From positions 1 to 39,842 of the forward strand of contig JAUWZP010000007.1 of the NCBI GenBank assembly GCA_030615265.1: a stretch of 39,842 bases of DNA, read 5' to 3'. The translations under genes were made by a program, and so were the position numbers. Numbering within the stretch: position 1 is the first letter of the stretch; every line of letters begins with the position of its first letter. The DNA is from Candidatus Bathyarchaeota archaeon. GTDB taxonomy: Archaea > Thermoproteota > Bathyarchaeia > Bathyarchaeales > Bathyarchaeaceae. Shown here piece by piece: positions 16,815-39,842 of this stretch. The notes under the pieces are model-generated. The model saw only the letters and a list, made by a program, of their open reading frames with translations. It did not search any database and had not been told where the DNA came from.

Positions 16815-17602
16815 TCACAATGATTTGTGCCAGTTGACGTTTATTATTGACACGTCGAGTATGTTGGTTTTTCCGTCGTTGTTTATGTCGGCGATTGGAT
16901 CGTAGCCTAAAGGGCCATCGGGGAAGGGAGGGCTGTGCCAGTGAGCAATGATCTGACCAGCATCCGATATGTCAACCGTTCTGTCGCCATTGATATCGCC
17001 TGGAATAGTCACAAGAACGGTGCCGTCGATGTAGTTGTTGTCATCTGTAAAGGTTTCACCTGCAACAGGAGTGGCGTATGCGCTTATTGTGTAGTTATCA
17101 GTGACGAAGCCTGTTGTGTTCCAATTGAAGGTAAGTGTTAGGTTTTCGCTCGGATCCAGGCTGGTTACGGTTTGTGCCTCGATTGCTATAGTGTCTGCAT
17201 AGGCTGTTACGTTGAAGGTTTCGGTTACTTCGCCATGATTTGTGACGTTTACATTTATGTTTGCAAAATATCCTTGGCCGACTATTGTTTTTGAGACGCT
17301 GAGGCTTGCTATTGTAATGTCATGTGTTGTTTCGCTTAGGCCCTTCCATAGGATGTACCAGGATTGAAAACCTGAAGAAGGGTACTTCAGTGTAAAAGCA
17401 TCTCTCAAACCGACTTCCAAAGACTCCGTCGTACCAGCCATAACAATGGTGTTTGTGGAGTCAACAGCAACCCCGTATCCATAGTCAGATCCACTTCCTC
17501 CCCACACACGGTTCCAAAGCTCATGCATGTATGCAGAAAAAGAACTCACAACAAGTAAAACTGCTCCTACGGCAACAGAGCTAAAGGGAAAAACATTTTC
17601 AT
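16815..17602 (-). pseudogene. Dockerin-like surface protein with a frameshifted signal peptide
   Basis: From GTG at 17549 the frame encodes 244 residues: one SBBP-type beta-propeller repeat (GGSGSDYGYGVAVD...VMAG, about 17-56), a CARDB domain (about 76-182) and a dockerin-like pair of EF-hand loops (GDINGDRTVDISD and ADINNDGKTNILD, about 184-244). Upstream, ATG at 17602 (Shine-Dalgarno gggagatt) starts MKMFFPLALLP and hits TAG. Adding one T to the T5 run at 17589-17593 instead gives MKMFFPFSSVAVGAVLLVVSSFSA, joined in frame to the GTG region: a convincing secretion signal. A single propeller repeat is far fewer than usual, so an internal deletion is likely too. Confidence 0.65.
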
Positions 17603-17867: not shown

Positions 17868-20018
17868 TTGAAAACAAAACTATTTGCAATCGTGATAATT
17901 GCAGCGTTTCTAGCAAGTACGGTGCTATTTGCAGTGCCAGTGAAGGCAACGGTGCTTCCAGACTACAAAGCAGTTGACGGAAATAATCCTCTGGGAGGAG
18001 AAGTATATCTCCCAACCACTGAGGATGCGCCTTACGTTGGACCGATGGAAAAAAAGAAAGGGAAATACAAAGGCGGCGACACTCCCCCAGTAGGCACAAC
18101 GGTATATGACTGGTATCTCTCTGCAATAGGATGTTCTCCGCCCACTATGACTTTGAGGGCTATGATTGGTAAGGCCGAAATTTGGGTTGCCGACGATCTC
18201 GCGTATCCAGAGGGCGACCCAAGGAACGAGTTCCCAATAAACTGGACTGTGACTGATGAGATGGCAGAATACCTAGCACAAGAATTCGATGACGTCATCT
18301 ACCCCACGGATACATCCTACTTCGGGATGCCCTTGGATAGAGACGGGACAAACACCATCTTTCAGCAGATGGGTTGGCCAGCATATACGTATGACTGGGC
18401 TGAGACTACTGATCCCTGGGATCCTCAAAGAACTATCATCAAGGTTCTCAACATACGTGATGAGAACTACGACAATCCTGATTATCCATACTTTGTCATA
18501 GGATTCTTTAGCTCTACATACACCGGCTACTACAACAGGAACATAATACACATCGATAATTGGCAATGGTGGCGCCGACTTGGTGAAGAGGGACACGAGT
18601 GGTACCCTGAATTCCCATGGAAGAGCGTCGAACGACCTTACACGTACGAAGGGACAGTAGCCCACGAGTATCAACATTTAATTCATGCCGACTGGAATCC
18701 TGCCGGCCCGTCCTTCATGAATGAAGGATGCTCCATGTACGCGGAGATACTATGTGGCTATGGAGTTTCATGGGGACATGTAAACAGCTACCTCTACACG
18801 CCAGACAACTCACTCACCGAGTGGGGAGACCAAGGCGACATCAATATACTCGCCGACTATGGCGCAGCCACCCTCTGGGCTGTATACCTAAGCGATCATT
18901 ACGGCGGGCCTGCCATACTAAGTCGCTATGTGGAAGCAGGGATTCCTGGAATCGAAGGCGTCAACGCCGCCTTAGGATACCTTGGTTATACTGAAACATT
19001 CGACGACGTTTACTACGACTGGAGAATCGCTAACTTCATCCACAAAGATGACCCAGGCGAAGGTAAGTACAACTACGTATCCCTCGATTTGGGAGGGGCA
19101 GAAGCGACACCAGCAATGACTCATCCTGTTCCACATCGATGGACCGCCGGAACCGATTTCGGAAACACCTTCACCAATTTAGGCTACGACACAGGAGTTG
19201 CAAAGTTGGGAGGTTACGGCTCAGACTACATATTCACCAAGTACCTAGATGAACCAGGTGAACTGTTCTTTGACGGCGATGACGTTGCGGCTTTCGGTTG
19301 GCAACTGGTGGAGGTTGATGGACGCCTTGCATGGTATTCCGACGGCGTAAGTTTAGGGAATTTCCTCATATCAACCACAATTGACGTACCTACTGAGGCC
19401 CCTGTCTTGACCTTTGACACTAAGTACGACATCGAAATCTATTGGGACTTCGGCTTCGTCCAAGTATCCACAGACGGAGGAGCAACATGGACCTCACTAG
19501 AGAATCCTTATACAACATATGACCATGACGCCGCTGCACACCCAGACATAATCGCAAATCTCCCAGGACTCACTGGAACGAGTGAAGGCTGGCCAGAATG
19601 GATGACCATGTCATTCGATCTGACGGATTACGCAGGACAAACAGTGATGTTGGGATTCCGTTACATGACCGACTGGGCATCCCTTTGGGAAGGCTGGTAC
19701 GTCGACAACGTCAGAATCAACGATGTAGCCATCTCGAATGAAGCGTTCGAAGTAGATCCTCCATACCCTGACGCCGATTTCTTTGTCACTCTGCTTGGAG
19801 TCAAAAAGGCTTCGCCTCCAATGAAGCTGGACTTTGCGCAGTTAGTCATCGAAGATGCAGACACGGTGGACTACCTGGGTGAAGTGCCGCTTGACGACGA
19901 TACAGAGACTGGCACCTTCGACGTCTCATACACACAAGAGTACGACTACCTAGTCCTCATAGTGAGCCCTGACCGCGGACCAGTGGACTACGTCTTCAAG
20001 TTCGACTACTCAAGTTAA
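17868..20018 (+). CDS. Secreted zinc metallopeptidase (HEYQH; M6-like C-terminal domain)
   Basis: A 716-residue exported protein with a clear signal peptide (KTKLFAIVIIAAFLASTVLFAVPVKA). The zinc site is HEYQH at about 266-270, followed by NEGCSMYAE at about 285-293, which would supply the third ligand. The region from about 480 to 640 (FVQVSTDGGATW ... LTDYAGQTVMLGFRY ... EGWYVDNVRI) resembles the jelly-roll domain of immune inhibitor A (M6) peptidases. The N-terminal catalytic part is too divergent to name firmly. The start is TTG at 17868, behind aaggagaaagg. It carries no dockerin. It could release extracellular peptides for the Opp system. A hairpin terminator follows. Confidence 0.82.
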   Translation: MKTKLFAIVIIAAFLASTVLFAVPVKATVLPDYKAVDGNNPLGGEVYLPTTEDAPYVGPMEKKKGKYKGGDTPPVGTTVYDWYLSAIGCSPPTMTLRAMIGKAEIWVADDLAYPEGDPRNEFPINWTVTDEMAEYLAQEFDDVIYPTDTSYFGMPLDRDGTNTIFQQMGWPAYTYDWAETTDPWDPQRTIIKVLNIRDENYDNPDYPYFVIGFFSSTYTGYYNRNIIHIDNWQWWRRLGEEGHEWYPEFPWKSVERPYTYEGTVAHEYQHLIHADWNPAGPSFMNEGCSMYAEILCGYGVSWGHVNSYLYTPDNSLTEWGDQGDINILADYGAATLWAVYLSDHYGGPAILSRYVEAGIPGIEGVNAALGYLGYTETFDDVYYDWRIANFIHKDDPGEGKYNYVSLDLGGAEATPAMTHPVPHRWTAGTDFGNTFTNLGYDTGVAKLGGYGSDYIFTKYLDEPGELFFDGDDVAAFGWQLVEVDGRLAWYSDGVSLGNFLISTTIDVPTEAPVLTFDTKYDIEIYWDFGFVQVSTDGGATWTSLENPYTTYDHDAAAHPDIIANLPGLTGTSEGWPEWMTMSFDLTDYAGQTVMLGFRYMTDWASLWEGWYVDNVRINDVAISNEAFEVDPPYPDADFFVTLLGVKKASPPMKLDFAQLVIEDADTVDYLGEVPLDDDTETGTFDVSYTQEYDYLVLIVSPDRGPVDYVFKFDYSS

Positions 20019-23369: not shown

Positions 23370-23728
23370 ATTATAGAAGATCTTTCCAAAAAGGATAATA
23401 GTGAATAAGGAGAATTAAATTTTGTAGAAACCTTAGAAAGGGACAGAGGGAAAGTGAAGAAAGCAGTATCGGGAATAATCTTAGTACTACTTTTTACTAG
23501 CGTACTCAACGTTGCATTTCAAGTTAAGCCGGCTATGGCCGAATCGGCTGGGTCTTATATTTCTGTGCCATATCACCGTCAGATTACAAATTATTATTGT
23601 GGACCTGCCTCGCTTGAAATGGTCTTCGACTTTTATGGTCCAGACATACCTCAAATTGAGATTGCTGATGTAGCGAGAACCTCATACATGTATGGGGGAA
23701 CATTTACCGACGACATGAGAAGAGCTGT

Positions 23729-23748
23729 TGCATGCATGCATGCATGCA
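23729..23748. repeat. (TGCA)5 tandem repeat
   Basis: Five perfect TGCA units lie at the point where the C39-like peptidase loses homology. The tract is self-complementary, so it could form a hairpin, and its copy number could vary by slippage. Confidence 0.8.
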
Positions 23749-23764
23749 TTAACCTCAGAAGCAC

Positions 23765-23804
23765 ATGCTCTGCTAAAACACCTCTGAGATGTTACTGTTC
23801 AAAA
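23765..23804 (+). repeat. 40-bp direct repeat, copy 2
   Basis: It matches 15647-15686 at 36 of 40 positions in the same orientation. Here it lies just after the (TGCA)5 tract, inside the nonsense tail of the truncated peptidase. Confidence 0.7.
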
Positions 23805-23905
23805 TTGACTAACTAATCACAACTACCTCTGTAACGTTGACGAAGCGAAACAACTCGCTTAAACAAACATAGCGGAGGCTTGGAGACTGACAAGCAGGAC
23901 ACCCT

Positions 23906-27330: not shown

Positions 27331-28380
27331 TTAGCTATTGACGAAGTGGCAAGCCACCAAATGCCCATTTCTGACATCTATAAGTTGAGGTTCTTCTTTA
27401 CGACAAATATCCATTGCTTTGGGGCATCTGGGATTGAATCTGCAACCCTTAGGGGGATTAACCGGGCTCGGCACTTCTCCCTTGAGCACAATTTTCTCTC
27501 TCTTTACGGTGGGATCGGGAATTGGAATTGAAGAGATGAGAGCTATTGAATAAGGATGGAGCGGCTCACGGTAAAGCTCTGTTGTTGATGCCAGTTCCAC
27601 CACTTTTCCAACGTACATGACAGCAACTCTGTCACTTATGCATTCAACGATACTTAAATCGTGACTGATAAACATGTATGTCAAGCCCAAGTCTTTGCGT
27701 AAGTCTTGGAAGAGGTTGAGCAACTGAGCTCTTACAGAAACGTCGACGGAAGATGTTGGCTCATCTAGAATCACAAACTTGGGATTAACCACAAGGGCTC
27801 TAGCTATAGCGATTCTTTGCCTTTGCCCCCCGCTGAATTCGTGTGGATATCTATATAGGTGTTTTTCCGTTAGCCCTACCTTCTCCAGCATTTCCAGCAC
27901 CCTCTGCCTAAGTTCCGCTCCCTTCGCCAGCCCTTGCACCTTGAGTGGCTCTTCGATTATGTCCTTAACAAGCATTCGAGGGTTAAGGGAGGACGAAGGA
28001 TCTTGGTAAACTATCTGCATATTTCTCCTTAAGGGTTTCAGTTTCCGTCCCTTGTATGTGGAAAGATCATATTGCTTCCTCAGTTTTTTGAGTATCTGGG
28101 AATCTTGACCTGAAGTTTCAAGTTTCTCTATTTCCTCTCTAACGTCAGCTGGAGTATCGAAGTAGATGTGACCCGCAGTCGGTTTAAGTAACCGGATCAG
28201 AGTTTTGCCAAGTGTAGTCTTGCCACATCCCGACTCGCCAACTAGGCCAAAGCATTCTCCTTTGGCTATGCTTAGGTTAACGTTGTCTACCGCTCTGACG
28301 TCGCCTACCTTTCTCCTGAATATTCCGCCAGTCAGCTTATAGTACTTTTTTAATCTTCGTGTTTGTAGAAAGACTATCAT
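27331..28380 (-). CDS. oppF: Oligopeptide ABC transporter ATPase OppF/DppF
   Basis: One of the two ATPase subunits that power peptide import. It has Walker A GESGCGKTT, the ABC signature FSGGQRQRIAIARAL, Walker B FVILDEPTSSVDV and the H-loop SHDL. It ends with the oligopeptide-specific C-terminal extension CRFNPRCPKAMDIC, which in relatives holds cysteines that can bind an Fe-S cluster. An insert of about 35 residues (DVREEIEKLETSGQ...) separates Walker A and the Q-loop. I choose ATG at 28380 because it overlaps the TGA of oppD (ATGA); an in-frame start at 28407 would run 31 bases into oppD. Confidence 0.92.
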   Translation of the reverse strand: MIVFLQTRRLKKYYKLTGGIFRRKVGDVRAVDNVNLSIAKGECFGLVGESGCGKTTLGKTLIRLLKPTAGHIYFDTPADVREEIEKLETSGQDSQILKKLRKQYDLSTYKGRKLKPLRRNMQIVYQDPSSSLNPRMLVKDIIEEPLKVQGLAKGAELRQRVLEMLEKVGLTEKHLYRYPHEFSGGQRQRIAIARALVVNPKFVILDEPTSSVDVSVRAQLLNLFQDLRKDLGLTYMFISHDLSIVECISDRVAVMYVGKVVELASTTELYREPLHPYSIALISSIPIPDPTVKREKIVLKGEVPSPVNPPKGCRFNPRCPKAMDICRKEEPQLIDVRNGHLVACHFVNS

Positions 28381-29537
28381 TCGAGACGCCCCGTGAACAG
28401 GTGACATGAAACGAAATGATCTTTCTTTAATTCCATCATCTCCGGTCTTATTCTAGGACATATTTGCATGGCGTAAGAACATCTTGGGTGAAACCTGCAA
28501 CCTGAAGGAGGTTCTATTAGGTTGGGCACTGTACCTGGGATGGACTTGAATTCCTTTCCAGGGGTTGGAATGGATTCCAGCAGGCCCTTAGCATATGGAT
28601 GGAGTGGATTCTTAAAAATTTCGATAACATCAGCAATCTCACAGATTGTCCCAGCGTACATTACAGCCACGCGATCGCACATTTCTGCAATGACTCCCAT
28701 GTCATGAGTTACGAAAAGGACAGATGAACTGAATTTGCTCTTAAGTCTCCTTATCAAATCTAGGATCCGTGCTTGGATGGTCACGTCTAGAGAGGTTGTT
28801 GGCTCATCGGCAACCAAGAGGGCTGGATTACATGCGAGGGCCATGGCTATCACGACCCGCTGTTGCATGCCTCCGCTGAGTTCGTGAGGATACATGTCGG
28901 TGACTCTTTCTGGGTCCGGGATTTCCATCTCACGAAGGATCTTAATAACAGCCTTCTTGAGCCCTATGTTTATTCTGCGTTTATAACGGTTGATGAGGGG
29001 AATTTTTGAAAGAAGCTTCAGGAAGATGGAATTAGGGTTTTTTATCATTTTCTTGTAAATTTTTCTTTCGAGTCTGTATATGCGTCCCTTTAGCGATCTC
29101 TGACCTACGGTTTCAATGTCTTTTTCAAGTTCCTCTAACGCATTTTCGGTTAATCCTTTTTTTCTATGCTTTAAGAAGGCTTCTGAAATTTGTTCGCCAG
29201 CAGTAAGTACAGGGTTCAGAGCGGATGCTGGCTCTTGAAAAACCATGGAAATGTCTTTTCCCCTAATTTTCATTAGAGTGGACTCTTCTTCTTTTAGGAT
29301 ATCTATGGTTCCATCTTTGCTTTTGAAGATAACCTTTCCGCCCTCTATTCTTCCAGGTTGCGGAATGAGATGGAGAATGGAGAGGCTTGTCATAGTTTTT
29401 CCGCATCCCGTCTCGCCTACGAGTCCAAGCGTTTCGCCGTCTTTTATGTAGAAGTTGACTCCTTCGAGGGCTTTAACTACTCCTTCATATGTGTAGAATC
29501 TTAACACGAGATCTTTGACTTCGACGATTTTGCTCAT
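28377..29537 (-). CDS. oppD: Oligopeptide ABC transporter ATPase OppD/DppD
   Basis: The second ATPase of the importer. Walker A is GETGCGKTM, the Q-loop region is [14 protein letters not shown], the signature is [15 protein letters not shown], Walker B is [13 protein letters not shown] and the H-loop is THDMG. The C-terminal extension [14 protein letters not shown] is the oligopeptide-family tail. Between the Q-loop and the signature lies a long basic insert of about 70 residues ([15 protein letters not shown] ... [14 protein letters not shown]), which makes the protein 386 residues instead of the usual 330 or so. Similar inserts occur in other archaeal Opp ATPases. ATG at 29537 is one base after the oppC stop. 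Confidence 0.92.
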
Positions 29538-29538
29538 G

Positions 29539-30471
29539 TCATCTTCTCCTAAGCGTTGGATCCATGATGTCTCTAAATGCGTCGCCTAGCAGATTCCATG
29601 CTAGACAGAAAGTGAATATGAATATGCCGGGTATCCAGTATGCGAACCAGTACTTGTAAGGCTCTGTCGCCGTCCCCATAATCCAGTTTCTGGAGAAACT
29701 TATCATTTGCCCCCAGTCTGCGTAACCTTTAGGAGCGCCCAGACCTAGAAAGCTTAAGGCAGCAGCGCTTAGGACGATTCCTCCTATATCAAGGGAGGCC
29801 ATAATTAGAATCGGATATATAGAGTTTGGAAGAATGTGCTTGGTCATGATCCTGAGATCGGAGCATCCAACGGCCTTGGCCGCCTCGACGTAATCCTCCG
29901 CTTTGACCCTTAATATTTCCGCGCGTATTACCCTCGCATAGCCTGGCCATGCAACCAGCGTAAGAGCTATCAAAACGTTGTCTAAGGTGGAACCTAAAGC
30001 TACTACCACTGCCATAGCGAGGATCAAACCTGGAAAGGCCCAAATGATGTCGGTGAACCGCATCAACAGTTCGTCAATGATACCTCCGTAGTAGCCACTA
30101 ACACATCCAATGGCAAGGGCTATTGCTAAAGCACCTAACACGACCAGGAAGCCCACACGGAAAGCTGTTCTAGTTCCCCAGATAACTCCATAATAGAGGT
30201 CATATTCGCCCTCTGTGAGTCCAAATGGGTGGTCTGCGCTCGGAGGTTTCGGCTCAAGACCATAGCCTGCTCTCGGAATCATATATGGGTCTCCCGAGAG
30301 TGGTGGGGCTAAAATTGGCGCCAGCAATGCGATTGCAACGTAGAATGCGAGCATTGCAATGCCCAGAATCGAAAGGGGGCTTTTCCTTGTTCTGTGCATC
30401 ATGAATTTCAGTTCTTTTATGGCAGGAGCCATTCCAGCCCTAAATTCCTTTAATCGAGACTTCTCGGGCAT
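29539..30471 (-). CDS. oppC: Oligopeptide ABC transporter permease OppC/DppC
   Basis: Membrane permease of the BPD_transp_1 family, forming the channel with OppB. The N-terminal OppC-type helix (SPLSILGIAMLAFYVAIALLAPIL) precedes a periplasmic-type segment and five more helices. The EAA loop that contacts the ATPases is YVEAAKAVGCSDLRIMTKHILPNS. The C-terminus contains LSFLGLGAPKGYADWGQMI, typical of OppC. I prefer ATG at 30471 because ggttgatc precedes it by three bases. A TTG at 30480 overlapping the oppB stop is the alternative. Confidence 0.92.
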   Translation of the reverse strand: MPEKSRLKEFRAGMAPAIKELKFMMHRTRKSPLSILGIAMLAFYVAIALLAPILAPPLSGDPYMIPRAGYGLEPKPPSADHPFGLTEGEYDLYYGVIWGTRTAFRVGFLVVLGALAIALAIGCVSGYYGGIIDELLMRFTDIIWAFPGLILAMAVVVALGSTLDNVLIALTLVAWPGYARVIRAEILRVKAEDYVEAAKAVGCSDLRIMTKHILPNSIYPILIMASLDIGGIVLSAAALSFLGLGAPKGYADWGQMISFSRNWIMGTATEPYKYWFAYWIPGIFIFTFCLAWNLLGDAFRDIMDPTLRRR

Positions 30472-30476
30472 TTTGA

Positions 30477-31511
30477 TCAACCCAGCCTAATGCGAGGATC
30501 TATATACGCGTAAAGTATGTCCACTATCAGGTTTGCTGTTACATAAATGGCTCCGGTAACGATGGCAAAACCGAGTATAGCTGGCGCGTCAAGATTAAGA
30601 GCGGCGTTAGCGGCATATTCTCCGATGCCATGAATGTTGAAGATGTACTCAACTATGACCAAGCCCGTTAACATACCTGCAACTAACATTCCCGAAATGG
30701 TGACCACAGGGATGAGGGCATTTCTTCTTGCGTGCTTGTTAATAACTTCGCCTTGATCTAAACCTTTTGCCCTAGCCGTAACGATGTAGCCTTTGTTTAG
30801 GGCCTCAAGCATGCTCGACCGCATCACTCTCACAATAAGCGCTATGATGACTACAACCAGGGTTACAATTGGAAGCACTAGATGTCTCAGAGCATCTAGG
30901 GTTATCCAGAGTTGTCCGTTTAGTATGCCATCAATGCTGTTCATTCCAGTGTACACGATAAATTCTGAGGAGTGGACAAAGACATTGGCTTCTGCTCCTA
31001 GCCTTCCTGTTGGAAACCAAGGTAAACTGATAGAAAAAATTGAGACTAATATCAAACCAAACCAGAAGGTTGGAAGGGACCACCCAACTATTGAGAAGAT
31101 CCTTGTAGCATGGTCAATGAGTTTGTCTTGGTGCACCGCTGATTTAACGCCTAAGTATATACCCAACAGGATGATGAGCGGCGCTGATAATATCGCGATC
31201 TCCGCGGTGGCAGGCAATCTTTCAAGAATACTCTTTGTGACAGGGTAGTTAAGGGTTCTTGACCAGCCTAAGTTGCCACTCATAACTTCTCTGACCCAGC
31301 GGAAATATTGGGTAATAATTGGATCGTTTAGGCCGTATTTTTCCATTATCTCTGCAACACTGCCGAGTTCCTTTGGGCTTTCACTGACGTATAGGCTAAC
31401 TCTCTGCATTGGGCTGAAGAATTGCATGACGCCAAAGATGAGCAAAGAAACGCCGATTAGGGTCGGTATCATGAGTAACACCCTTCTTATTATGTATTCT
31501 CGTAATCCCAT
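30477..31511 (-). CDS. oppB: Oligopeptide ABC transporter permease OppB/DppB
   Basis: First gene of the reverse-strand oppBCDF operon. The 344-residue product has the N-terminal YIIRRVLLMIPTLIGVSLLIFGVMQF helix, six predicted helices and the EAA loop ALNKGYIVTARAKGLDQGEVINKHARRNALIP. It ends in DILYAYIDPRIRLG, the usual OppB ending. ATG at 31511 is preceded by a strong ggaggtc. A TATA-like stretch near 31555-31565 on the reverse strand may drive the operon. It is divergent from the oppA-like gene across a 344-base gap. Confidence 0.93.
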   Translation of the reverse strand: MGLREYIIRRVLLMIPTLIGVSLLIFGVMQFFSPMQRVSLYVSESPKELGSVAEIMEKYGLNDPIITQYFRWVREVMSGNLGWSRTLNYPVTKSILERLPATAEIAILSAPLIILLGIYLGVKSAVHQDKLIDHATRIFSIVGWSLPTFWFGLILVSIFSISLPWFPTGRLGAEANVFVHSSEFIVYTGMNSIDGILNGQLWITLDALRHLVLPIVTLVVVIIALIVRVMRSSMLEALNKGYIVTARAKGLDQGEVINKHARRNALIPVVTISGMLVAGMLTGLVIVEYIFNIHGIGEYAANAALNLDAPAILGFAIVTGAIYVTANLIVDILYAYIDPRIRLG

Positions 31512-31855
31512 TTTGGTTGACCTCCGTCGGATGTTAACTTGAGAAACAGAGGTTAATAAGCTTTAACTGTAACAACCGCGGCGTGCGCGCATGGTGATGC
31601 AAAAAAGATGGATCAGTAAGCTTTTGTGGATAGGGTCTTCGGGCCAAGGGAATTCTCTTCTCATGTTTCGTCCTTCAGTTTTTTATCTAGATTCTTCGGC
31701 GTATCCAGGATATACCTTCCTTAAGTGTTTGCGTTCGATACAGTTTAGAGAGATGCTAAAAATTGGCAACTAGAGAAGTATTCCATAAGAGATAAATATC
31801 GCTGACTGCATAGCTTTGTTTGCTGTAAATAAAAAAGAGAAAGGAGAAAAGAAAA
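31512..31855. other. Divergent control region between oppB and oppA
   Basis: This 344-base gap separates the two arms of the transporter. It holds the oppB Shine-Dalgarno site and a TATA-like ttattaa on the reverse strand near 31555-31565. A gcggcgtgcgcgcatg tract lies at 31578-31593 and an AT-rich agataaatatc near 31788-31798 that could be the oppA promoter. A 60-codon forward frame from 31591 has unconvincing composition and is not called. Confidence 0.35.
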
Positions 31856-33946
31856 TTGAACAAAAAGACTTTACCTATGGTTTTTCTTTGGCTACTATTG
31901 CTTCCAATGTTCGCTTTAAGTGTTTCAGCGCCGACAGTTGTGATACCTAATCAAAGCCATCTCATAATTGAGTCAATAGGCGATCCTGAGACTGTTGATC
32001 CAGCTTGGGCATACGACACAGCCAGCGCAATGCTGATCTTTAACGTGTATGACACCCTGATTTTCTTTGACCGTGAGTCAGTAGGCGACTTTGTCCCATC
32101 TCTAGCCACTGAATGGCTGATCAATCAGCCTCCAAAACCGGGCTCTCCAACAGGCACGGACAGCACTTGGTATTTCAAGATAAGAACAGGTGTGAAGTTC
32201 CATGATGGTTCTACGCTTACGCCTGCGGATGCGGAGTATTCCTTTGAAAGGGCGATGGTTATGGACCGATCTGGTGGTCCGGTATGGATGATCAATGAAC
32301 CTCTAATCGGCAGTGGATGGCCAGACAAGAGTGGTTGGCCACAAGACTCCAGTGTTAAAATAAACACTGCTGTAGAGAGCAACTCGACGCACGTTTGGTT
32401 CAACCTCGCCATGCCTTATCCGCCGTTCATGCAGATTCTAAGCCAGTCATGGGCTTCCATAATGAGCGAAGCATACAGTATTGCAAATGGATGCTTTGAT
32501 GGAGACTGGACAAACTGGAAGGCCTACGAGGACCCCGGGATGTCACCGCTAGACGCCGCTGGCAACGTCATGATGGGAACCGGTCCGTACAAGCTCGACT
32601 ACTGGTCACATGGAGTAGAATGGTCCATCATAAGACACGCTGAATACTGGGGACTCTGGCCTGCTCCGCACTGCTCGGGCTATGTGGACAGGTTTACGGA
32701 GAAGGTGGTTTACGAATGGGGTACACGCTATGCAGATTTCATCGGTGGATATGCCGATTCAGTGTACGTTCCTAGAGCTTATCTGCCCCAGATGATACTG
32801 AACTGGCCAACAAAGTGGAACCCTGGAATGCCCACGAACCCAGAGGATTACGCCGCGGGTATACGTGGTCTACCTGGCCTACCATCACTGCAAATGGCTA
32901 ACTACTTCTTCAACTTCAACACTAACCCCGCAACCGGATACGTAGGAACCGGCTCACTGGTAAATGGAGACGGAATTCCGTTGGACTTCTTCGCCGACAT
33001 CAACATAAGGAAGGGCTTCGCCTACAGCTTCGACTACCAAGAGTTCCTTGATACCATGTTCTGGGGTGAGGCGGTTCAGCCAAAAAGCTCTGTCATAGAG
33101 GGAATACTATACCACAACCCAGCCAACCCGACGTACAGCTACGACTTAACGGCGGCTAGAGATCATTTCATATTGGCAAACAACACCGTGGGAGGAATAG
33201 CGGAAGGCGTGACGACATCAGGGTTCAAGATGACCATAACCTTCAACACAGGCAACGTCCCGAGGCAAACCACCGCAGAGATGCTCAGAGACGGCGTCCA
33301 GCAGGTCTTTACTGACAACGGCTGGGGGCCAGTCCAAATCAGTGTGCTAGGCGTTCCTTGGCCCACGTATCTAGGCGAGCTCGTTGGATATCCAACCTTC
33401 AGGTCGCTGATGCCTATATTCATCATAGGTTGGCTCGCCGACTACCCAGATCCTCATAACTGGGTGGTCCCGTACCAACACTCCGACGGAGACTTCACCT
33501 ATTTCCAGAGCTACAGTAACTCAACAGTTGACGCACTAATCGAACTAGCCATCGCCACTCCAGACGGACCAGTAAGAAAAGGTTACTACTACGACCTTCA
33601 ACTCATGTACTTCCAAGACATTCCAAGCGTCGGCACGAGTCAAGCTCTTGGACGTCGTTGGGAACGCGACTGGTACCAAGGATGGTACTTCAACCCGATA
33701 TACCCAGGTACCTTCGTGTATCACCATTGGAAGGGCTTGAACGGCGACATAAACGGCGACAACCGGGTTAGCATAACCGACGCAGGCAAAGTCAGCGCCC
33801 ACTGGAACATACCACCATTCATCTCCGGGCCATCCGGCTACGACGTCATCGCCGACATCGGACCTGTCAAACAATACCCAACACTAGGAACAATTAACAT
33901 CGTCGACGCTGGAGTCATAAACGCTCACTACAGAGAAGAAATTTAG
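31856..33946 (+). CDS. oppA: Oligopeptide-binding protein OppA with C-terminal dockerin-like module
   Basis: An extracellular family-5 solute-binding protein that captures peptides for the Opp permease. The signal peptide (LPMVFLWLLLLPMFALSVSA) is followed by the family entry DPETVDPAWAYDTASAMLIFNVYDTL, then VKFHDGSTLTPADAEYSFERA and MGTGPYKLDYW. Later typical segments include IGWLADYPDPHNWV. From about residue 630 a separate module begins: GDINGDNRVSITDAGKVSAHW, then ADIG...LGTINIVDAGVINAHY. These are two dockerin-type EF-hand/helix repeats, the second with its calcium loop altered by an insert. There is no lipobox or C-terminal anchor, so docking could hold it at the surface. TTG start at 31856 after aaaggag. 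Confidence 0.9.
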   Translation: MNKKTLPMVFLWLLLLPMFALSVSAPTVVIPNQSHLIIESIGDPETVDPAWAYDTASAMLIFNVYDTLIFFDRESVGDFVPSLATEWLINQPPKPGSPTGTDSTWYFKIRTGVKFHDGSTLTPADAEYSFERAMVMDRSGGPVWMINEPLIGSGWPDKSGWPQDSSVKINTAVESNSTHVWFNLAMPYPPFMQILSQSWASIMSEAYSIANGCFDGDWTNWKAYEDPGMSPLDAAGNVMMGTGPYKLDYWSHGVEWSIIRHAEYWGLWPAPHCSGYVDRFTEKVVYEWGTRYADFIGGYADSVYVPRAYLPQMILNWPTKWNPGMPTNPEDYAAGIRGLPGLPSLQMANYFFNFNTNPATGYVGTGSLVNGDGIPLDFFADINIRKGFAYSFDYQEFLDTMFWGEAVQPKSSVIEGILYHNPANPTYSYDLTAARDHFILANNTVGGIAEGVTTSGFKMTITFNTGNVPRQTTAEMLRDGVQQVFTDNGWGPVQISVLGVPWPTYLGELVGYPTFRSLMPIFIIGWLADYPDPHNWVVPYQHSDGDFTYFQSYSNSTVDALIELAIATPDGPVRKGYYYDLQLMYFQDIPSVGTSQALGRRWERDWYQGWYFNPIYPGTFVYHHWKGLNGDINGDNRVSITDAGKVSAHWNIPPFISGPSGYDVIADIGPVKQYPTLGTINIVDAGVINAHYREEI

Positions 33947-33957
33947 AGGTGAAAATA

Positions 33958-35145
33958 GTGAGAGGAAAAATAACAATTTGGAAAAAAACTTTGCTGTTAG
34001 CTAGCATCGCACTGTTTCTTCTGGCCGTTCTGCCAGTTGGACTGGTCTTCGCTGGAACTACAACACTTGCCGCGCCAGACATAACTGATGTAACCAAAAC
34101 ACCTGGTTCATCCTTCTACATCGACATCACCGTCGCAGACGTCAGCGCAATGTGGGGCTTCGACATCACTTTAGAATATGACATAACAATCCTAACGGCT
34201 ACTGGTTACTCATCCTATAGCCCCTTCATGATGCCATGGCCTAGTGAAATAAACACCGGGGAAGGCTACGTTAAAGCATCCTACAGCATGATGCTCGGCG
34301 AGCTAGTGGGATTCTCAACCATTGCACCCGCGCCAATACTGAGAATAGACTTCGATGTCATAGACTCTGGAGCGTCTCAGCTAAACCTCGACAATACAGA
34401 AATCAGCGACATATACGGCGAACCCATCCCTCACGCGGCCGTTGACGGCTCATTCCGCAACATTGCAGGGGCTCCCCTCGCTGACTTCTACTACACCCCG
34501 TCGACTCCAATCGAGCGCGAGACCGCGACCTTCACATCAACCAGCATTGATATAGACGGCTTCATAGTCGCTGAGGACTGGGACTTCGGAGACGGAAACA
34601 CTGGAACCGGTGGAGCAACAACCCACTCGTATAGAACTGCAGGAACTTATACTGTGACGCTAACCGTCACCGACAACGACGGAAAGACCGACAGCTCTTC
34701 GGACACTATAGAAGTGCTTTCGCCACCGCATCCTATAGGCGTCGACCTGAGAGAGAGCAAAGCTGATTCTCGTCGATTCGACGTATCGGTAAGGGACCCA
34801 GACACGAGCAACACCTTCACAGCATGGGTTAAAAGCCTAAACACCAAGGAAGATACGCTGGTTAGGATCGTCTGGAGTATATGGGAATTCCCAGCCATGC
34901 AGGCCCTCGGATCAATAGAGGCTGAAGTATCGATAGGTCCTAAAGATCTGGCAAGATTCACAGCCGACTTTGATGTCTTCGATGACAGATGGGGTTTCGA
35001 CGGCAGTAGTAAGATGAACTACGAAGTCAGAACAGAAATATACTACGTCGACTTCTACCTCCCAGGCGGATTTCCCCATTGGGAAAAAGGAACAGTAAAC
35101 TCAGAGAAAGGAACAGAGTGGTTCAGTGTAACCACCTTACCATAA
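33958..35145 (+). CDS. Secreted cohesin-like and PKD domain protein
   Basis: After a signal peptide (KKTLLLASIALFLLAVLPVGLVFA) comes a cohesin-like domain of about 130 residues. It includes TPGSSFYIDITVADVSAMWGFDITLEYD near its start and ILRIDFDV and EISDIYGEP...VDGSF near its end. These match the strand order of cellulosomal cohesins. A PKD domain follows (WDFGDGNTGTGGATTHSY...TVTVTDNDG-type text), then a C-terminal beta-rich domain of about 140 residues that I cannot place. There is no C-terminal anchor. The start is GTG at 33958, with gaggtga five bases upstream; GTG at 33949 overlaps that site. It lies 11 bases after oppA, so the two are probably co-transcribed. Cohesins bind dockerins, and oppA carries one. 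Confidence 0.82.
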   Translation: MRGKITIWKKTLLLASIALFLLAVLPVGLVFAGTTTLAAPDITDVTKTPGSSFYIDITVADVSAMWGFDITLEYDITILTATGYSSYSPFMMPWPSEINTGEGYVKASYSMMLGELVGFSTIAPAPILRIDFDVIDSGASQLNLDNTEISDIYGEPIPHAAVDGSFRNIAGAPLADFYYTPSTPIERETATFTSTSIDIDGFIVAEDWDFGDGNTGTGGATTHSYRTAGTYTVTLTVTDNDGKTDSSSDTIEVLSPPHPIGVDLRESKADSRRFDVSVRDPDTSNTFTAWVKSLNTKEDTLVRIVWSIWEFPAMQALGSIEAEVSIGPKDLARFTADFDVFDDRWGFDGSSKMNYEVRTEIYYVDFYLPGGFPHWEKGTVNSEKGTEWFSVTTLP

Positions 35146-35190
35146 GACAAACCTAGAAAAACCAAAGCGTGCAAAACGCACCAACACCCC

Positions 35191-35198
35191 TTTTTTTT
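35191..35198 (+). terminator. T8 terminator tract after the cohesin-PKD gene
   Basis: A run of eight T follows a short GTGC/GCAC inverted repeat about 45 bases after the stop codon. Oligo-T is the usual archaeal terminator. It would separate the oppA-cohesin transcript from the propeller gene. Confidence 0.5.
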
Positions 35199-35238
35199 CT
35201 AATTATTGCAGATCCATGGAAAGAAGAGGAAGAATTAT

Positions 35239-37056
35239 ATGTGTCAAAAGATTGTTCCGATGATATTAGCTTCAACTTTGTTCTTAGTTATGCTTGCGTC
35301 CATAATATCAATTGGCAACGCAGTCGAATGGTCACCTGAGATGAGGCTCACCTGGGACTATGAGATTGACGCGAATCCATCGATCACCCAGACAACCGAT
35401 GGAAGAATATGGCTTGTCTGGCAATCGTACAGAACCGGGAACAATGAAATCTTCTACAAAGTTTATAATGAATCCTTAGTGCACCCGTGGTCACTTGGCA
35501 CTCAACTGACCAACGACACAAGCAATGACTTTACACCATCGATTATGCAGGCTACTGATCATACCCTATGGGTTGTTTGGACTTCAGGCCGGACAGGAAA
35601 CCATGACATATATTACAAGACTTTTAACGGATCATGGTCATCTGATGAGCCTCTAATCACAGACCCAAAGGAAGACGAGTACCCATCCGTCATGCAGACA
35701 GTAAACGGCACGATTTGGGTTGTTTGGGCCTCAGATAGAACAGGGGACTTCGAAATATACTATAAAACTTCATCTGACAACGGTGAAACCTGGTCACAGG
35801 AAAGACTGACCACGAATCTAGGCATTGAGGATTCGCAACCATCGGTTATGCAGACCGCGGACGAAAAGATCTGGATTGCATGGGTGAGGAACAACGACAT
35901 ATTCTACACCTTCCATAATGGAACGTCATGGTCATTTGAGACGCCGGTAACCACTCATTCCGATTCAGATTGGCAGCCATCAATCATGCAAGGTCTAGAC
36001 GAACGGATATGGGTCGTTTGGGCTTCGGATAGGGGACCACAATTTAACATAGACATATACTACAACATTTTTGATGGTAGCTGGTCTGGGGACACCCGGC
36101 TCACCACGGATGGTTCAACCGACGCGGGGCCGTCGATCCTTCAGACGAATGCCGGCACCATATGGATCTCTTGGTCGTCAGGGAGGGAATACAACCTGGA
36201 CATTTACTATGTGTCAGACTCGATACCCGCTCAGGACGATGTGGCCATATTTAGCGTTGAACCTTCCTCAGAAATAGTAACCCAAGGGGAAACCACCCAA
36301 ATTGAAGTTGTGCCCCGAAACAAAGGAACGGTGGCTCAAACCTTCCAAGTAAGTTACTACGTCAACTCGACATTGCTCGGATCCGAAACAACCTCTTTAG
36401 ATCCTGGTCAGCTAAATCAAATAGACTTTTTATGGAACACGTCAAATTTCGACATTGGAACTTATGTAATATGGGCTGAAGCAAGCATCGTCGCTGGCGA
36501 AACCTACATAGCCGACAACACGTACATCGACGGCACAGTCATCGTTGTAACGCACGATGTGGCTATAGAAAGCGTTACACCTTCCAAAACGATAGTTCAC
36601 CGAGGATACGGATTATACGTCTATGTCGAAGTTAGAAACGAAGGAAATTTCACCGAAACCGTCGATGTCACAGCGTATTACAACACAACCGCTATGGGAA
36701 CCCAAACATTCATAGGCTTGGCTCCAAACACTGGCATAACACTAACCTTTCCTTGGAGCGCAGGCACTCCTTACGGCTATTACACCATATCGGCAAAGGC
36801 AAAACCCGTTCCAGACGAAAATGACCTCTCAGACAATTTCTTCACCGACGGCACAGTTATGGTGACCATTCCAGGCGACGTCAACTTCGACAGAATAGTA
36901 GATATATTAGACGCGGGTAAAATCAGCGCCCACTGGTATCCCGGCCCACCCGCTGGACCCTTAGGCTACGACTTAAACGTTGACATCAACGACGACGGGA
37001 AAATCGGCATACATGACGCTGGAATCATTAGTGCCAACTGGCAGAAATCCTGGTAA
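35239..37056 (+). CDS. Secreted beta-propeller, CARDB and dockerin-like protein
   Basis: A signal peptide (VPMILASTLFLVMLASIISIGNA) precedes six repeats of a P-S-(I/V)-x-Q-T...I-W-(V/I)-x-W...(D/E)-I-(F/Y)-Y pattern, covering about residues 45-325 from the ATG. This is a sialidase-like, probably six-bladed propeller. Two CARDB domains follow (about 333-435 and 440-543). The C-terminus is a complete dockerin-like pair: GDVNFDRIVDILDAGKISAHW and VDINDDGKIGIHDAGIISANW. The propeller would bind or act on an extracellular ligand; no catalytic set is clear. I prefer ATG at 35239 (gaggaag upstream). TTG at 35206 would add a charged stretch before the signal peptide. It is a likely partner of the cohesins at 33958 and 37167. 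Confidence 0.82.
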   Translation: MCQKIVPMILASTLFLVMLASIISIGNAVEWSPEMRLTWDYEIDANPSITQTTDGRIWLVWQSYRTGNNEIFYKVYNESLVHPWSLGTQLTNDTSNDFTPSIMQATDHTLWVVWTSGRTGNHDIYYKTFNGSWSSDEPLITDPKEDEYPSVMQTVNGTIWVVWASDRTGDFEIYYKTSSDNGETWSQERLTTNLGIEDSQPSVMQTADEKIWIAWVRNNDIFYTFHNGTSWSFETPVTTHSDSDWQPSIMQGLDERIWVVWASDRGPQFNIDIYYNIFDGSWSGDTRLTTDGSTDAGPSILQTNAGTIWISWSSGREYNLDIYYVSDSIPAQDDVAIFSVEPSSEIVTQGETTQIEVVPRNKGTVAQTFQVSYYVNSTLLGSETTSLDPGQLNQIDFLWNTSNFDIGTYVIWAEASIVAGETYIADNTYIDGTVIVVTHDVAIESVTPSKTIVHRGYGLYVYVEVRNEGNFTETVDVTAYYNTTAMGTQTFIGLAPNTGITLTFPWSAGTPYGYYTISAKAKPVPDENDLSDNFFTDGTVMVTIPGDVNFDRIVDILDAGKISAHWYPGPPAGPLGYDLNVDINDDGKIGIHDAGIISANWQKSW

Positions 37057-37166
37057 GAATGTTCGTGTCTTCTGCAATTCGCGATTTATGATAGTTGCAA
37101 AAAACTATAATACTTCCAAACTGCTTTAATTAGTTAGAGAGAAAGAGGAAGAAGGAGAGGTCCATA

Positions 37167-39419
37167 TTGCGTTTCAGATACAGAAAAAACCTTTTGTGGA
37201 TCTGGCTTGTCATAACGCTTCTTGTCAGCATAACTATAGCAAGTTTACCATTGTCAGTCGGTATGCCAAGCACCGTGCTTTCCGCCCCCACCATTATAGA
37301 CGAGGCCTTGACGCCTGGCTCAACCTTCTACATTAACATCACCGTCGCCGATGTCAGCGCGATGTGGGGCTACGATTTCATCTTAAGCTATGACACGACT
37401 GTCCTAACCGCCACCAGCTACAGTTCTTATGATCCCTTCATAATTCCTTGGCCTAGCCTAATAAACGACCCAGAAGGCTACTTAGCCGTCTCTTACAGCA
37501 TGATGTTCGGCGAGCTAGTGGGGTTCTCAACCGTTGCCCCCGAGCCAATAGCGAGAATCGACTTCACCGTTGACGCCCTAGGCACATCCATGCTAGGCAT
37601 GGGTCCCACAGAAATCAGCGACATATATGGAGAACCCATGCCTCACGACACGGTAGACGGTTTCTTCGCAAATGTGGATGTGCCCCTTCATGACATAACT
37701 GTCAAGGAAATCACGGCGTCCCCAACCGGGGGCCCAGATGATGAGGTGATGCTAGGCGACATTGTAACAATCAACGTAACTGTCTTCAATGGGGGTGCCA
37801 CAACGGAGTCTTTCAACGTCACCGCCAAATACAACAACACCGATATCGAAACCAAAACTGTCACCGATTTGGCTTCACTAACAGAAAAACCTCTGAGCTT
37901 CAGCTGGAACACAACTGACGTCAGTCCCGGCTACTATGTCGTAAAAGCTGAAGCTATCCTCGTTGGCGATGAGGATCCAGCCGACAACACGCGTACCTTT
38001 GACGGCCAGGTGATGATAGGTCGTCGAGACATAGCCGCCACCGTCCCGCCCACGGCCTGGCCAACCAATGTAACGGTCGGCGAACCCGTATACGTCAACG
38101 CAACCTTCAAAAACCAAGGCAATTTCACCGAAACCTTCAATGTGACCGTGACGTACAGTTCGGTAACTCCACACGGGCAACCTCCGAGTTCTGGCGACAT
38201 TGGAACGCGAGAGAATATAATCCTGCTTCCAGGGGCCAGCATAACCTTGGACTTCGTCTGGGACACAACAGGAAGCAGAAATTACACGTACAATATAAGA
38301 GCTGAGGCAACAGAGGTTCCAGATGAAATCGATCCTGATAACAATGGAGACACGCGCCTTAATGCGGTGACTCTTACTCGCCCACTCGGGACCCCTGAAG
38401 TGGTAGGCGCCGAGTATTCACCTAGGCCGCCAATCGAGGGGGAAACAGTAACGTTCAAGGCAATCGCCACCGATCCAGACGGCTACATCGTCGCTTGGGA
38501 CTGGGACTTCGGCGATGGAACCCCACATGGAACAGGCGAAACAACGACCCACATCTACACAACGAAAGGAACATACTTTGTGACCCTAATCGTCACAGAC
38601 AACGATAGTCTAACGTCCGCCGCATGGGAGCTGGCAGGAGGCTTGACCATTTACAGTCTTGACATAGCTATAGTCAGCGTTACTCCGTCCACCACTGAGG
38701 TGGTCGCAGGAGAATCCTTGGTCATAAACGTGACCATTAAGAACGAGGGTAATCTTCCGGAGCTACAAACATTCAATGTCACCACCTACTACGACGGCAC
38801 CGTCATCAATGAAACCGAAACCGGTTTAGCTGGACTAGCAGATACAACGCTAGAATTCAGCTGGGACACAACTGGCGTGAGTCGAGGCACTTACACTATA
38901 AGGGCTGTTGCGAGCAACCTAACCCGAGAAATCCAAACAGACAACAACATGCTCCAATTTAACGGTACAATTACAGTTTTGGCCCACGACATAGCCGTCA
39001 CCGCCGTCACAGTCTCTTCAACCAATGCAACAGTCGGCGAATCCGTATCCATCAACGTAACCATTGAAAACCAAGGTGATTTCACCGAGACCTTCAACGT
39101 CACTGTCAAATACGACGACACTGAGATTGAAACGAAAACAGATGTTACGCTATCTGTTGGGGCCAGCACAACGTTAACCTTCACTTGGGACACAACGGGT
39201 GTTGATGCGGGCACCTATGCCATAAGCGCGAATGCTAGCGTGGTTTCAGGCGAAATAGACATGACCGACAACACTTATGTCGGCGACATAGTCACCGTGA
39301 AAGAGGCACCAGGCGGAACAGACTTCGTTCTGTATGTGGTTGCTGGAACAGTGATAGCCATTGTGGCGGTAACAACATTGGTCTACTTCTTGAGGGTGAG
39401 AAAACCCAAACCGACATAG
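37167..39419 (+). CDS. Membrane-anchored cohesin-CARDB-PKD scaffold protein
   Basis: A 750-residue surface protein. Signal peptide about 1-39. Cohesin-like domain about 42-170 (TPGSTFYINITVADVSAMWGYDFILSYD ... EISDIYGEPMPHDTVDGFF), close to the domain at 33958. CARDB domains about 173-284 and 287-402. PKD about 410-495 (WDWDFGDGTPHGTGE). Two more CARDB domains about 498-604 and 607-712. A C-terminal helix (FVLYVVAGTVIAIVAVTTLVYFL) with a basic RVRKPKPT tail anchors it in the membrane. This is the layout of a single-cohesin anchoring scaffold: the CARDB/PKD stalk lifts the cohesin through the S-layer. TTG start at 37167, behind ggagaggtcc. Dense N-glycosylation sequons fit the exterior location. 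Confidence 0.85.
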   Translation: MRFRYRKNLLWIWLVITLLVSITIASLPLSVGMPSTVLSAPTIIDEALTPGSTFYINITVADVSAMWGYDFILSYDTTVLTATSYSSYDPFIIPWPSLINDPEGYLAVSYSMMFGELVGFSTVAPEPIARIDFTVDALGTSMLGMGPTEISDIYGEPMPHDTVDGFFANVDVPLHDITVKEITASPTGGPDDEVMLGDIVTINVTVFNGGATTESFNVTAKYNNTDIETKTVTDLASLTEKPLSFSWNTTDVSPGYYVVKAEAILVGDEDPADNTRTFDGQVMIGRRDIAATVPPTAWPTNVTVGEPVYVNATFKNQGNFTETFNVTVTYSSVTPHGQPPSSGDIGTRENIILLPGASITLDFVWDTTGSRNYTYNIRAEATEVPDEIDPDNNGDTRLNAVTLTRPLGTPEVVGAEYSPRPPIEGETVTFKAIATDPDGYIVAWDWDFGDGTPHGTGETTTHIYTTKGTYFVTLIVTDNDSLTSAAWELAGGLTIYSLDIAIVSVTPSTTEVVAGESLVINVTIKNEGNLPELQTFNVTTYYDGTVINETETGLAGLADTTLEFSWDTTGVSRGTYTIRAVASNLTREIQTDNNMLQFNGTITVLAHDIAVTAVTVSSTNATVGESVSINVTIENQGDFTETFNVTVKYDDTEIETKTDVTLSVGASTTLTFTWDTTGVDAGTYAISANASVVSGEIDMTDNTYVGDIVTVKEAPGGTDFVLYVVAGTVIAIVAVTTLVYFLRVRKPKPT
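37205..37303 (+). repeat. 99-bp perfect repeat, copy 1
   Basis: This segment, encoding the signal peptide and first residues of the scaffold cohesin, is identical to 39744-39842, the last 99 bases of the window. Confidence 0.9.
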
Positions 39420-39711
39420 AGAACAAGACTTCATTCGTACATGCAAATTAGCTTTCCTTAAAGAACGAATAATTTAGCCAATGCAATTACTAAAAAACAG
39501 CAGTTAGCATTCTGAATCGGCACGCCTGGCACACCTGTCGCAACCATGTCTACGAATGGAGCATGTAAGAAAGCAGGCTTATCAAAACTTGCGTAACGAG
39601 TTCTTTTAAACACGTATAAACAACTAGAAGATTTTTCCATATACTTTTTATTCATGAAATCGAATTTAATAATAGCAACACTATTAAAACCATCTTTGGA
39701 GAAAAAGAGAA
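39420..39711. other. 292-base gap between the two scaffold genes
   Basis: No convincing gene is seen. AT-rich stretches near 39640-39690 could form the promoter of the next scaffold gene. A reverse-strand frame across 39458-39724 overlaps the next signal peptide and shows no motif. Confidence 0.3.
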
Positions 39712-39842
39712 ATGAAAAAAACAAGAAACCTGTTATGGATTTCGCTTGTCATAACGCTTCTTGTCAGCATAACTATAGCAAGTTTACCATTGTCAGTCGG
39801 TATGCCAAGCACCGTGCTTTCCGCCCCCACCATTATAGACGA
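39712..39842 (+). CDS. Start of a second scaffold cohesin gene (cut by the window edge)
   Basis: From ATG at 39712 (behind gagaaa) the text MKKTRNLLWISLVITLLVSI... continues to the last base. After the first few residues it is identical, at the DNA level, to the start of the 37167 gene. It therefore encodes the signal peptide and first strand of another cohesin-like surface protein, the product of a recent tandem duplication. Only 43 codons are visible. The rest of its architecture is unknown. Confidence 0.85.
   Translation, partial: MKKTRNLLWISLVITLLVSITIASLPLSVGMPSTVLSAPTIID

Follow-up and report, generated by a model that had tools for sequence, protein, structure and literature searches.

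Cohesin-dockerin pairs are known chiefly from polysaccharide-degrading bacterial complexes, and the locus described here has such modules beside an Opp-class importer. The locus lies on contig JAUWZP010000007.1 (contig C20 of a genome of 1.86 Mb that is 96% complete), which was analysed over its entire length of 39,842 nucleotides ("the window"). It comprises an oppA gene, whose product is a secreted family-5 solute-binding protein ending in a dockerin, the cohesin genes that follow it, and the divergent oppFDCB transporter genes (Table 1). An earlier reading made without database searches (the sequence-only reading) had proposed that this receptor docks to a membrane-anchored scaffold. As far as predicted docking to a membrane-anchored cohesin is concerned, that proposal stands: the locus probably encodes a surface-tethering module for a family-5 ATP-binding cassette (ABC) import system, in which OppA would be clipped via its dockerin onto a membrane-anchored cohesin. 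The evidence comes from protein domains, a modelled fold, gene order, conservation in relatives, the mutual exclusivity of dockerin and membrane helix on receptors, and the similarity of dockerins within loci.

According to the open reading frame (ORF) calls, positions 27331-39842 hold oppFDCB on the minus strand and five divergent plus-strand genes, in the order oppA, soluble cohesin protein, propeller protein, membrane-anchored cohesin protein and the 43-codon start of another gene. Given the short gaps of the plus-strand set (first 2-11 base pairs (bp), second about 60 bp, third about 110 bp), the four complete genes are read as an operon of the order dockerin, cohesin, dockerin, cohesin. 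Alternative starts exist for the soluble cohesin gene (33949 or 33958, the latter with GAGGTGA ahead) and for the propeller gene (35206 or 35239). The four complete ORFs and the divergent oppBCDF genes were located where the sequence-only reading had placed them, with starts shifted by a few codons. As in Opp-class importers, an SBP_bac_5 domain adjoins OppBCDF; the transporter proteins gave OppF/DppF-, OppD-, Opp4C- and Opp2B-type NCBIfam matches, every one under its equivalog cut-off. The genome has one SBP_bac_5 gene (the window oppA) and two cohesins plus the shortened start at 39712; this sole receptor gene, the sole cohesins and three like-typed dockerins are all on contig C20.

For domain assignment, 40 stretches of relatives were fetched around cohesin or receptor matches, and iterated profiles were built and used for re-scoring; window sequences helped to seed these profiles, and the E-values are somewhat optimistic. 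OppA carries an N-terminal signal sequence and a non-permuted family-5 domain, and neither a lipobox cysteine nor a C-terminal membrane helix was found in its sequence. Its dockerin, under the Pfam Dockerin_1 cut-off at 16.0 bits, is matched by the profile specific to the taxonomic order (Table 1). The first calcium loop is canonical, and both recognition helices are of the DAGxIxAH[WY] kind. The OppA dockerin shares about 50% sequence identity with those of the propeller protein and of the 16815 protein (Table 1).

Each of the two window cohesin proteins carries one cohesin, and the two domains are 65% identical. Pfam Cohesin (PF00963) gave E 4.1e-4, just under the cut-off, in the 33949 protein and 25.5 bits, over the cut-off of 24.1, in the 37167 protein (six-frame search), and the relatives-based profiles matched both strongly (Table 1). 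The 37167 cohesin was modelled with AlphaFold at a predicted local distance difference test (pLDDT) score of 92.7 (57 sequences). The top PDB matches of this model in Foldseek were solved cohesins (6kgc, E 2.6e-10; Archaeoglobus fulgidus 2xdh, E 1.5e-9), the bacterial ones in dockerin complexes. Profiles, model and structural matches thus agree with the earlier claim that both proteins begin with cohesins. Pfam alone was marginal and the relatives-based profiles were decisive, for cohesins and dockerins alike; chance or a profile artefact was ruled out by the order-specific profiles, the fold and conservation. The C-terminal membrane helix that had been noticed in one of the two proteins was confirmed in the 37167 protein (hydropathy peak 2.5 within the final 55 residues). 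A third cohesin gene, placed at 39712 by the sequence-only reading, was not accepted: 43 codons alone are present, and no cohesin domain lies within the 131 bp up to the contig end. Those 131 bp match the start of the 37167 gene at 120 positions, the last 95 bp or so exactly, and the products share 88% amino acid identity over 42 residues. Further genes for cohesin proteins with a membrane helix occupy the matching place in relatives (L048, L049, L057). The contig ends inside the exact copy of about 95 bp, which is the likely cause of the assembly break.

Genome-wide, five dockerin matches were obtained at a lax threshold. Three, all on contig C20, are of the DAGxIxAHW type, and the remaining two (contigs C11 and C113) are clearly unlike it. 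The propeller protein ends in a dockerin, as had been claimed (order profile E 1.2e-16); with Pfam Dockerin_1 it scored 22.1 bits against a cut-off of 22.9, and 26 bits, over the cut-off, in a six-frame search. The propeller assignment itself rests on Reg_prop and BNR_4 matches, plus BNR_2 matches of up to 4e-12 in counterparts (L048, L049, L052, L057, L058). The dockerin of the distal CARDB protein at 16815 (motif DAGQIIAHW), of the same type as those of OppA and the propeller protein, is the genome's best (34.7 bits, over the Pfam cut-off in the six-frame search; order profile E 7.3e-19); 32/63 positions are identical with the OppA dockerin, compared with 16/56 in the contig C11 dockerin, which is unrelated. 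Its ORF is possibly 5'-shortened. The propeller and 16815 proteins both have the two internally symmetric EF-like loop-helix repeats of type I dockerins (PF00404), and the 16815 protein is probably a further cargo. With one dockerin type and two similar cohesins, the simple reading of these sequences is that one dockerin type would face one cohesin type in this genome.

An indication of what the dockerin does came from the anchors of other receptors. Among 61 sampled family-5 receptors, 26 have a dockerin, 23 a C-terminal membrane helix and none both (Fisher P 2e-8, an optimistic value, as the receptors are related sequences and some were picked for nearness to cohesins). The dockerin stands at the extreme C-terminus in most of them, and the chain continues past it in L067, L068 and L163. 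In a set of 20 receptors mainly from cohesin-free genomes (three of these genomes gave a cohesin match in a more sensitive census), 17 had a helix and none a dockerin. Dockerin-bearing receptors were found only in cohesin-encoding genomes. The 23 helix-anchored archaeal receptors belong to the same receptor family and transporter class as the window OppA, which has a dockerin in place of their helix. From this exclusivity, together with the lack of a lipobox or helix in the window OppA, the dockerin seems to replace the receptor's usual membrane anchor, the helix being now on the cohesin protein.

The arrangement recurs. A survey of relatives for dockerin-bearing oppA genes beside cohesin genes, which the sequence-only reading had called for, showed that at least 12 further loci within the order have it, usually with opp permease genes alongside (gene maps of L030, L037, L039, L040, L046, L048, L049, L052, L056, L057, L058 and L059), with divergent permease genes beside the receptor gene in eight (L037, L040, L048, L049, L052, L056, L057, L058). 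In the nearest family, the window order of receptor-dockerin, cohesin, propeller-dockerin and membrane-anchored cohesin is repeated in L048, L049, L052 and L057, and in L058 with two cohesins on the membrane protein; the dockerin partner there is a BNR propeller every time, and in other families a dockerin-bearing PKD and/or CARDB protein. The 2-bp junction of oppA and cohesin gene (ORF call) is also present in L049 and L057, and genome G012 has three paralogous copies of the locus. In a held-out test, for which loci of new genomes were chosen by cohesins alone, seven loci had a receptor-dockerin beside cohesins (L191, L194, L195, L197, L199, L200, L202) and two had opp genes with the receptor beyond the fetched stretch (L193, L198); in held-out loci with few cohesins the arrangement was mostly missing. 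In single-contig genomes (n=8), 6/22 receptors lay within 10 kb of a cohesin versus 0.95 expected from circular shifts (P 0.0006, for positions among the matches listed). Many relatives also encode multi-cohesin scaffoldins, with three cohesins and their own C-terminal dockerin (for instance L030, L032, L033, L037, L039, L046, L191, L200), a design that would allow branched assemblies.

Dockerins are also more alike within loci than across them. The mean normalised similarity of receptor and partner dockerins was 0.387 within a locus and 0.240 across loci (P 5e-5), the partner from the same locus ranked top for the receptor dockerin in 9/12, and dockerins from elsewhere in the same genome had a lower mean likeness than the locus partner (P 0.037, nine loci). 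Recognition motifs like those on the local OppA dockerin recur on peptidases of three relatives and were found on none in the window genome: a subtilase (S8) and an InhA-like peptidase in G017, and subtilases in G059 and G087. A second receptor-like protein of G059 has them too. Twenty dockerin proteins of relatives, picked by dockerin score and ORF length and not at random, were scanned with Pfam; they included four subtilases, two M14 carboxypeptidases, one C13 peptidase, two InhA-like peptidases and two arylsulfotransferases, and no glycoside hydrolase scored above threshold on any of the 20 or on the window dockerin proteins.

The proposed scheme, in which binding, stoichiometry, localisation and the peptide ligand are what we infer, would operate as follows. 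OppA would be secreted with neither lipid nor helix as an anchor, and its C-terminal dockerin would plug into a cohesin that a neighbouring protein presents. Through its C-terminal helix the 37167 product would be held in the membrane, its CARDB/PKD stalk holding the cohesin outward, and the soluble 33949 cohesin probably serves as an adaptor or second docking site. The propeller and CARDB proteins, with the same dockerin type, would compete for or fill further cohesins, and receptor and accessory binding proteins would be displayed jointly near OppBCDF. In relatives, multi-cohesin scaffoldins and dockerin-bearing secreted peptidases may extend this principle to a cellulosome-like capture and digestion of peptides.

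Several observations weigh against tethering of OppA by its dockerin, or at least against parts of the scheme. The OppA dockerin has a degenerate second calcium loop (DIGPVKQYPTLGTINIVD), a correction to the EF-hand pair described in the sequence-only reading; the second recognition helix (IVDAGVINAHY) is kept despite this. The 33949 protein has no membrane helix and no visible anchor in its sequence, and in 12 of the 61 receptors both dockerin and helix are missing. Sampling was non-random and drew on related loci, the similarity of dockerins within loci is partly confounded by relatedness, and among the paralogous loci of G012 it holds in 2/3 and fails for L057. No docked peptidase was seen among the five dockerin matches of this nearly complete genome; a "peptidosome" with docked peptidases, the strict sense of the term used earlier, thus applies to relatives only.

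If the modules were unpaired, the dockerin-like ends would be mere calcium-stabilised modules and the cohesin-like domains stalk or adhesin sandwiches, placed together simply as surface proteins. The marginal Pfam scores and the degenerate loop would fit, as would genomes with dockerins that show no cohesin (63/101 have dockerins, 49/101 cohesins). This is nevertheless very improbable: the best matches of the cohesin model are solved cohesins, dockerin receptors were found only in cohesin-encoding genomes, adjacency is conserved, the dockerin stands in place of the helix anchor, and dockerin similarity follows the locus. Improbable too, if marginally less so, is a network that serves mainly to form a lattice on the surface, or a layer for cell-cell adhesion, from PKD, CARDB, propeller and S-layer-like proteins, with OppA a mere passenger. 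PKD and CARDB domains do occur throughout, the 37167 protein has a weak S-layer model match, many cohesin loci of relatives are without opp genes, and adhesion has been proposed for dockerin/cohesin proteins of ANME archaea (PMC5244752, PMC9012536). Against this, OppA is the genome's sole family-5 receptor, and its gene heads the cluster, 2-11 bp from a cohesin gene and beside oppBCDF, an arrangement that recurs in many genomes.

Another case is the same tether serving another ligand, nickel complexes or oligosaccharides instead of peptides, which we regard as unlikely while giving it appreciable weight. NikA- and chitin-oligosaccharide-binding types occur among family-5 receptors, the weak top NCBIfam matches were NikA-like Opp5A and Opp4A, and OppB was best matched by the nickel-type Opp2B, all far under cut-offs. 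Peptides are favoured by the cargo of relatives, rich in secreted peptidases and free of glycoside hydrolases among the 20 non-randomly picked proteins, and by the nearest solved receptors by sequence, mostly annotated as peptide-type.

Beyond the tethering of OppA, it is conceivable, and we put it forward tentatively, that the order as a whole has a protein-scavenging assembly, in which peptidases, peptide receptors and propeller proteins with locus- or genome-specific dockerin codes sit on cohesin scaffolds beside Opp, the window being a minimal form. Extracellular proteolysis would then be physically coupled to peptide uptake.

Table 1. Features of the window
Feature	Coordinates	Strand	Evidence and content
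oppF, oppD, oppC, oppB	27331..31511	-	ABC transporter of the oligopeptide/nickel class, complete with two ATPases and two permeases; runs divergently to oppA
oppA, secreted family-5 solute-binding protein	31856..33946	+	SBP_bac_5 E 2.5e-43
C-terminal dockerin of OppA	33737..33943	+	order-specific dockerin profile E 1.5e-11; Pfam sub-threshold E 0.014
Secreted cohesin and PKD protein	33949..35145	+	cohesin (34042-34479) profile E 1.7e-32; PKD domain (34471-34716) PKD_4 5e-18; uncharacterised C-terminal part of about 130 residues
BNR-type beta-propeller, CARDB and dockerin protein	35206..37056	+	Reg_prop 1e-5, BNR_4 8e-5, CARDB 1.4e-7; dockerin (36868-37053) Dockerin_1 1.8e-4
Membrane-anchored cohesin protein	37167..39419	+	cohesin (37260-37700) profile E 1.2e-30; CARDB/PKD stalk; C-terminal membrane helix (about 39324-39395); basic tail
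Gene start at contig end	39712..39842	+	signal peptide resembling that of 37167
Distal CARDB protein ending in dockerin	16815..17549	-	dockerin (16815-17006) Dockerin_1 E 3.8e-8

Other features were observed in the window and in relatives. Archaeal-type threonyl-tRNA synthetase (NF003068/PRK03991) and phosphoglycerate mutase (apgM, PRK04024) were matched, which marks the genome as archaeal. At 17868-20018, divergent from the 16815 dockerin gene, the window encodes a secreted InhA-like metallopeptidase with a MAM domain (E 2.5e-22) and without a dockerin; similar proteins of G017 and G021 do carry one. The short ORF at 23454-23816, in which a C39-like peptidase domain begins (PF13529, E 7e-7), is apparently truncated or frame-shifted. 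In G087, a subtilase of about 2190 residues has both a cohesin and a dockerin (L220:1490-8056), and a single chain of L055 consists of receptor, dockerin, cohesin and dockerin.

Many family-5 receptors of relatives match the SBP_bac_5 profile in swapped order (146-365 ahead of 3-147), i.e. they are circularly permuted, among them L049:1106-3172, L048:2928-4952 and L053:4388-6502. About 310 of the 689 residues of the L049 receptor model (pLDDT 78.9) align to NikA/AppA/DppA, as permutation would give. In L055:8452-11865, L157, L158, L159 and L161 the family-5 motif is reached only some 280-300 residues into the chain, with profile positions 1-281 matched late, which perhaps marks a second permutation point. 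A permuted glucose-binding protein, TpMglB-2, is known (PMC4990184); no report of circular permutation in family-5 receptors was found in the literature searched. A link between permutation and the OppA dockerin was dropped, because the window OppA is non-permuted and permuted-looking receptors also come with helix anchors (L187, judged by the order of profile matches and where the motif lies).

The role of archaeal cohesin-dockerin modules has so far been unclear, and the locus offers them a concrete, testable job tied to a nutrient importer. It suggests a way in which uncultured archaea of the order may retain protein-derived nutrients, and because the modules are small single domains, the predicted binding is directly testable.

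Among known systems, the bacterial cellulosome, amylosome and mucinolysome (PMC12997984) share with the window type-I-like dockerins on cargo and cohesins on anchored scaffolds. In contrast to the cellulosome, the cargo here would be a transport receptor and binding proteins, the anchors carry single cohesins (three-cohesin proteins being present in relatives only), and anchoring would be by an archaeal C-terminal helix; no glycoside hydrolases or carbohydrate-binding modules were found. A cellulosome reading was rejected for lack of glycoside hydrolases. The fold of the modelled window cohesin is common to the A. fulgidus cohesin 2xdh. To our knowledge the A. fulgidus pair is isolated, with no transporter receptor attached. 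The cohesin and dockerin of this archaeon are non-cellulosomal, and archaeal pairs have been verified to bind (Peer et al. 2009 and Haimovitz et al. 2008, as cited in PMC9012536). Likeness also extends to anaerobic methanotrophic (ANME) archaea, probably of a different archaeal lineage, for which OppA/NikA- and TroA-dockerin proteins have been described along with scaffoldins carrying as many as five cohesins (Chadwick et al. 2022, PMC9012536); the window genome likewise has an OppA/NikA receptor fused to a dockerin, and cohesins. The earlier statement that no such system had been described was thus overstated. The sections consulted of that description make no mention of oppA being linked to opp permease and cohesin genes, of anchor replacement, or of a dockerin type shared with peptidases, and none of the three was found described in the literature covered, which excluded most subscription papers and preprints. 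New here, relative to these systems, are the conserved locus, the apparent replacement of a receptor's membrane anchor by a dockerin, and a dockerin type common to receptor and peptidases.

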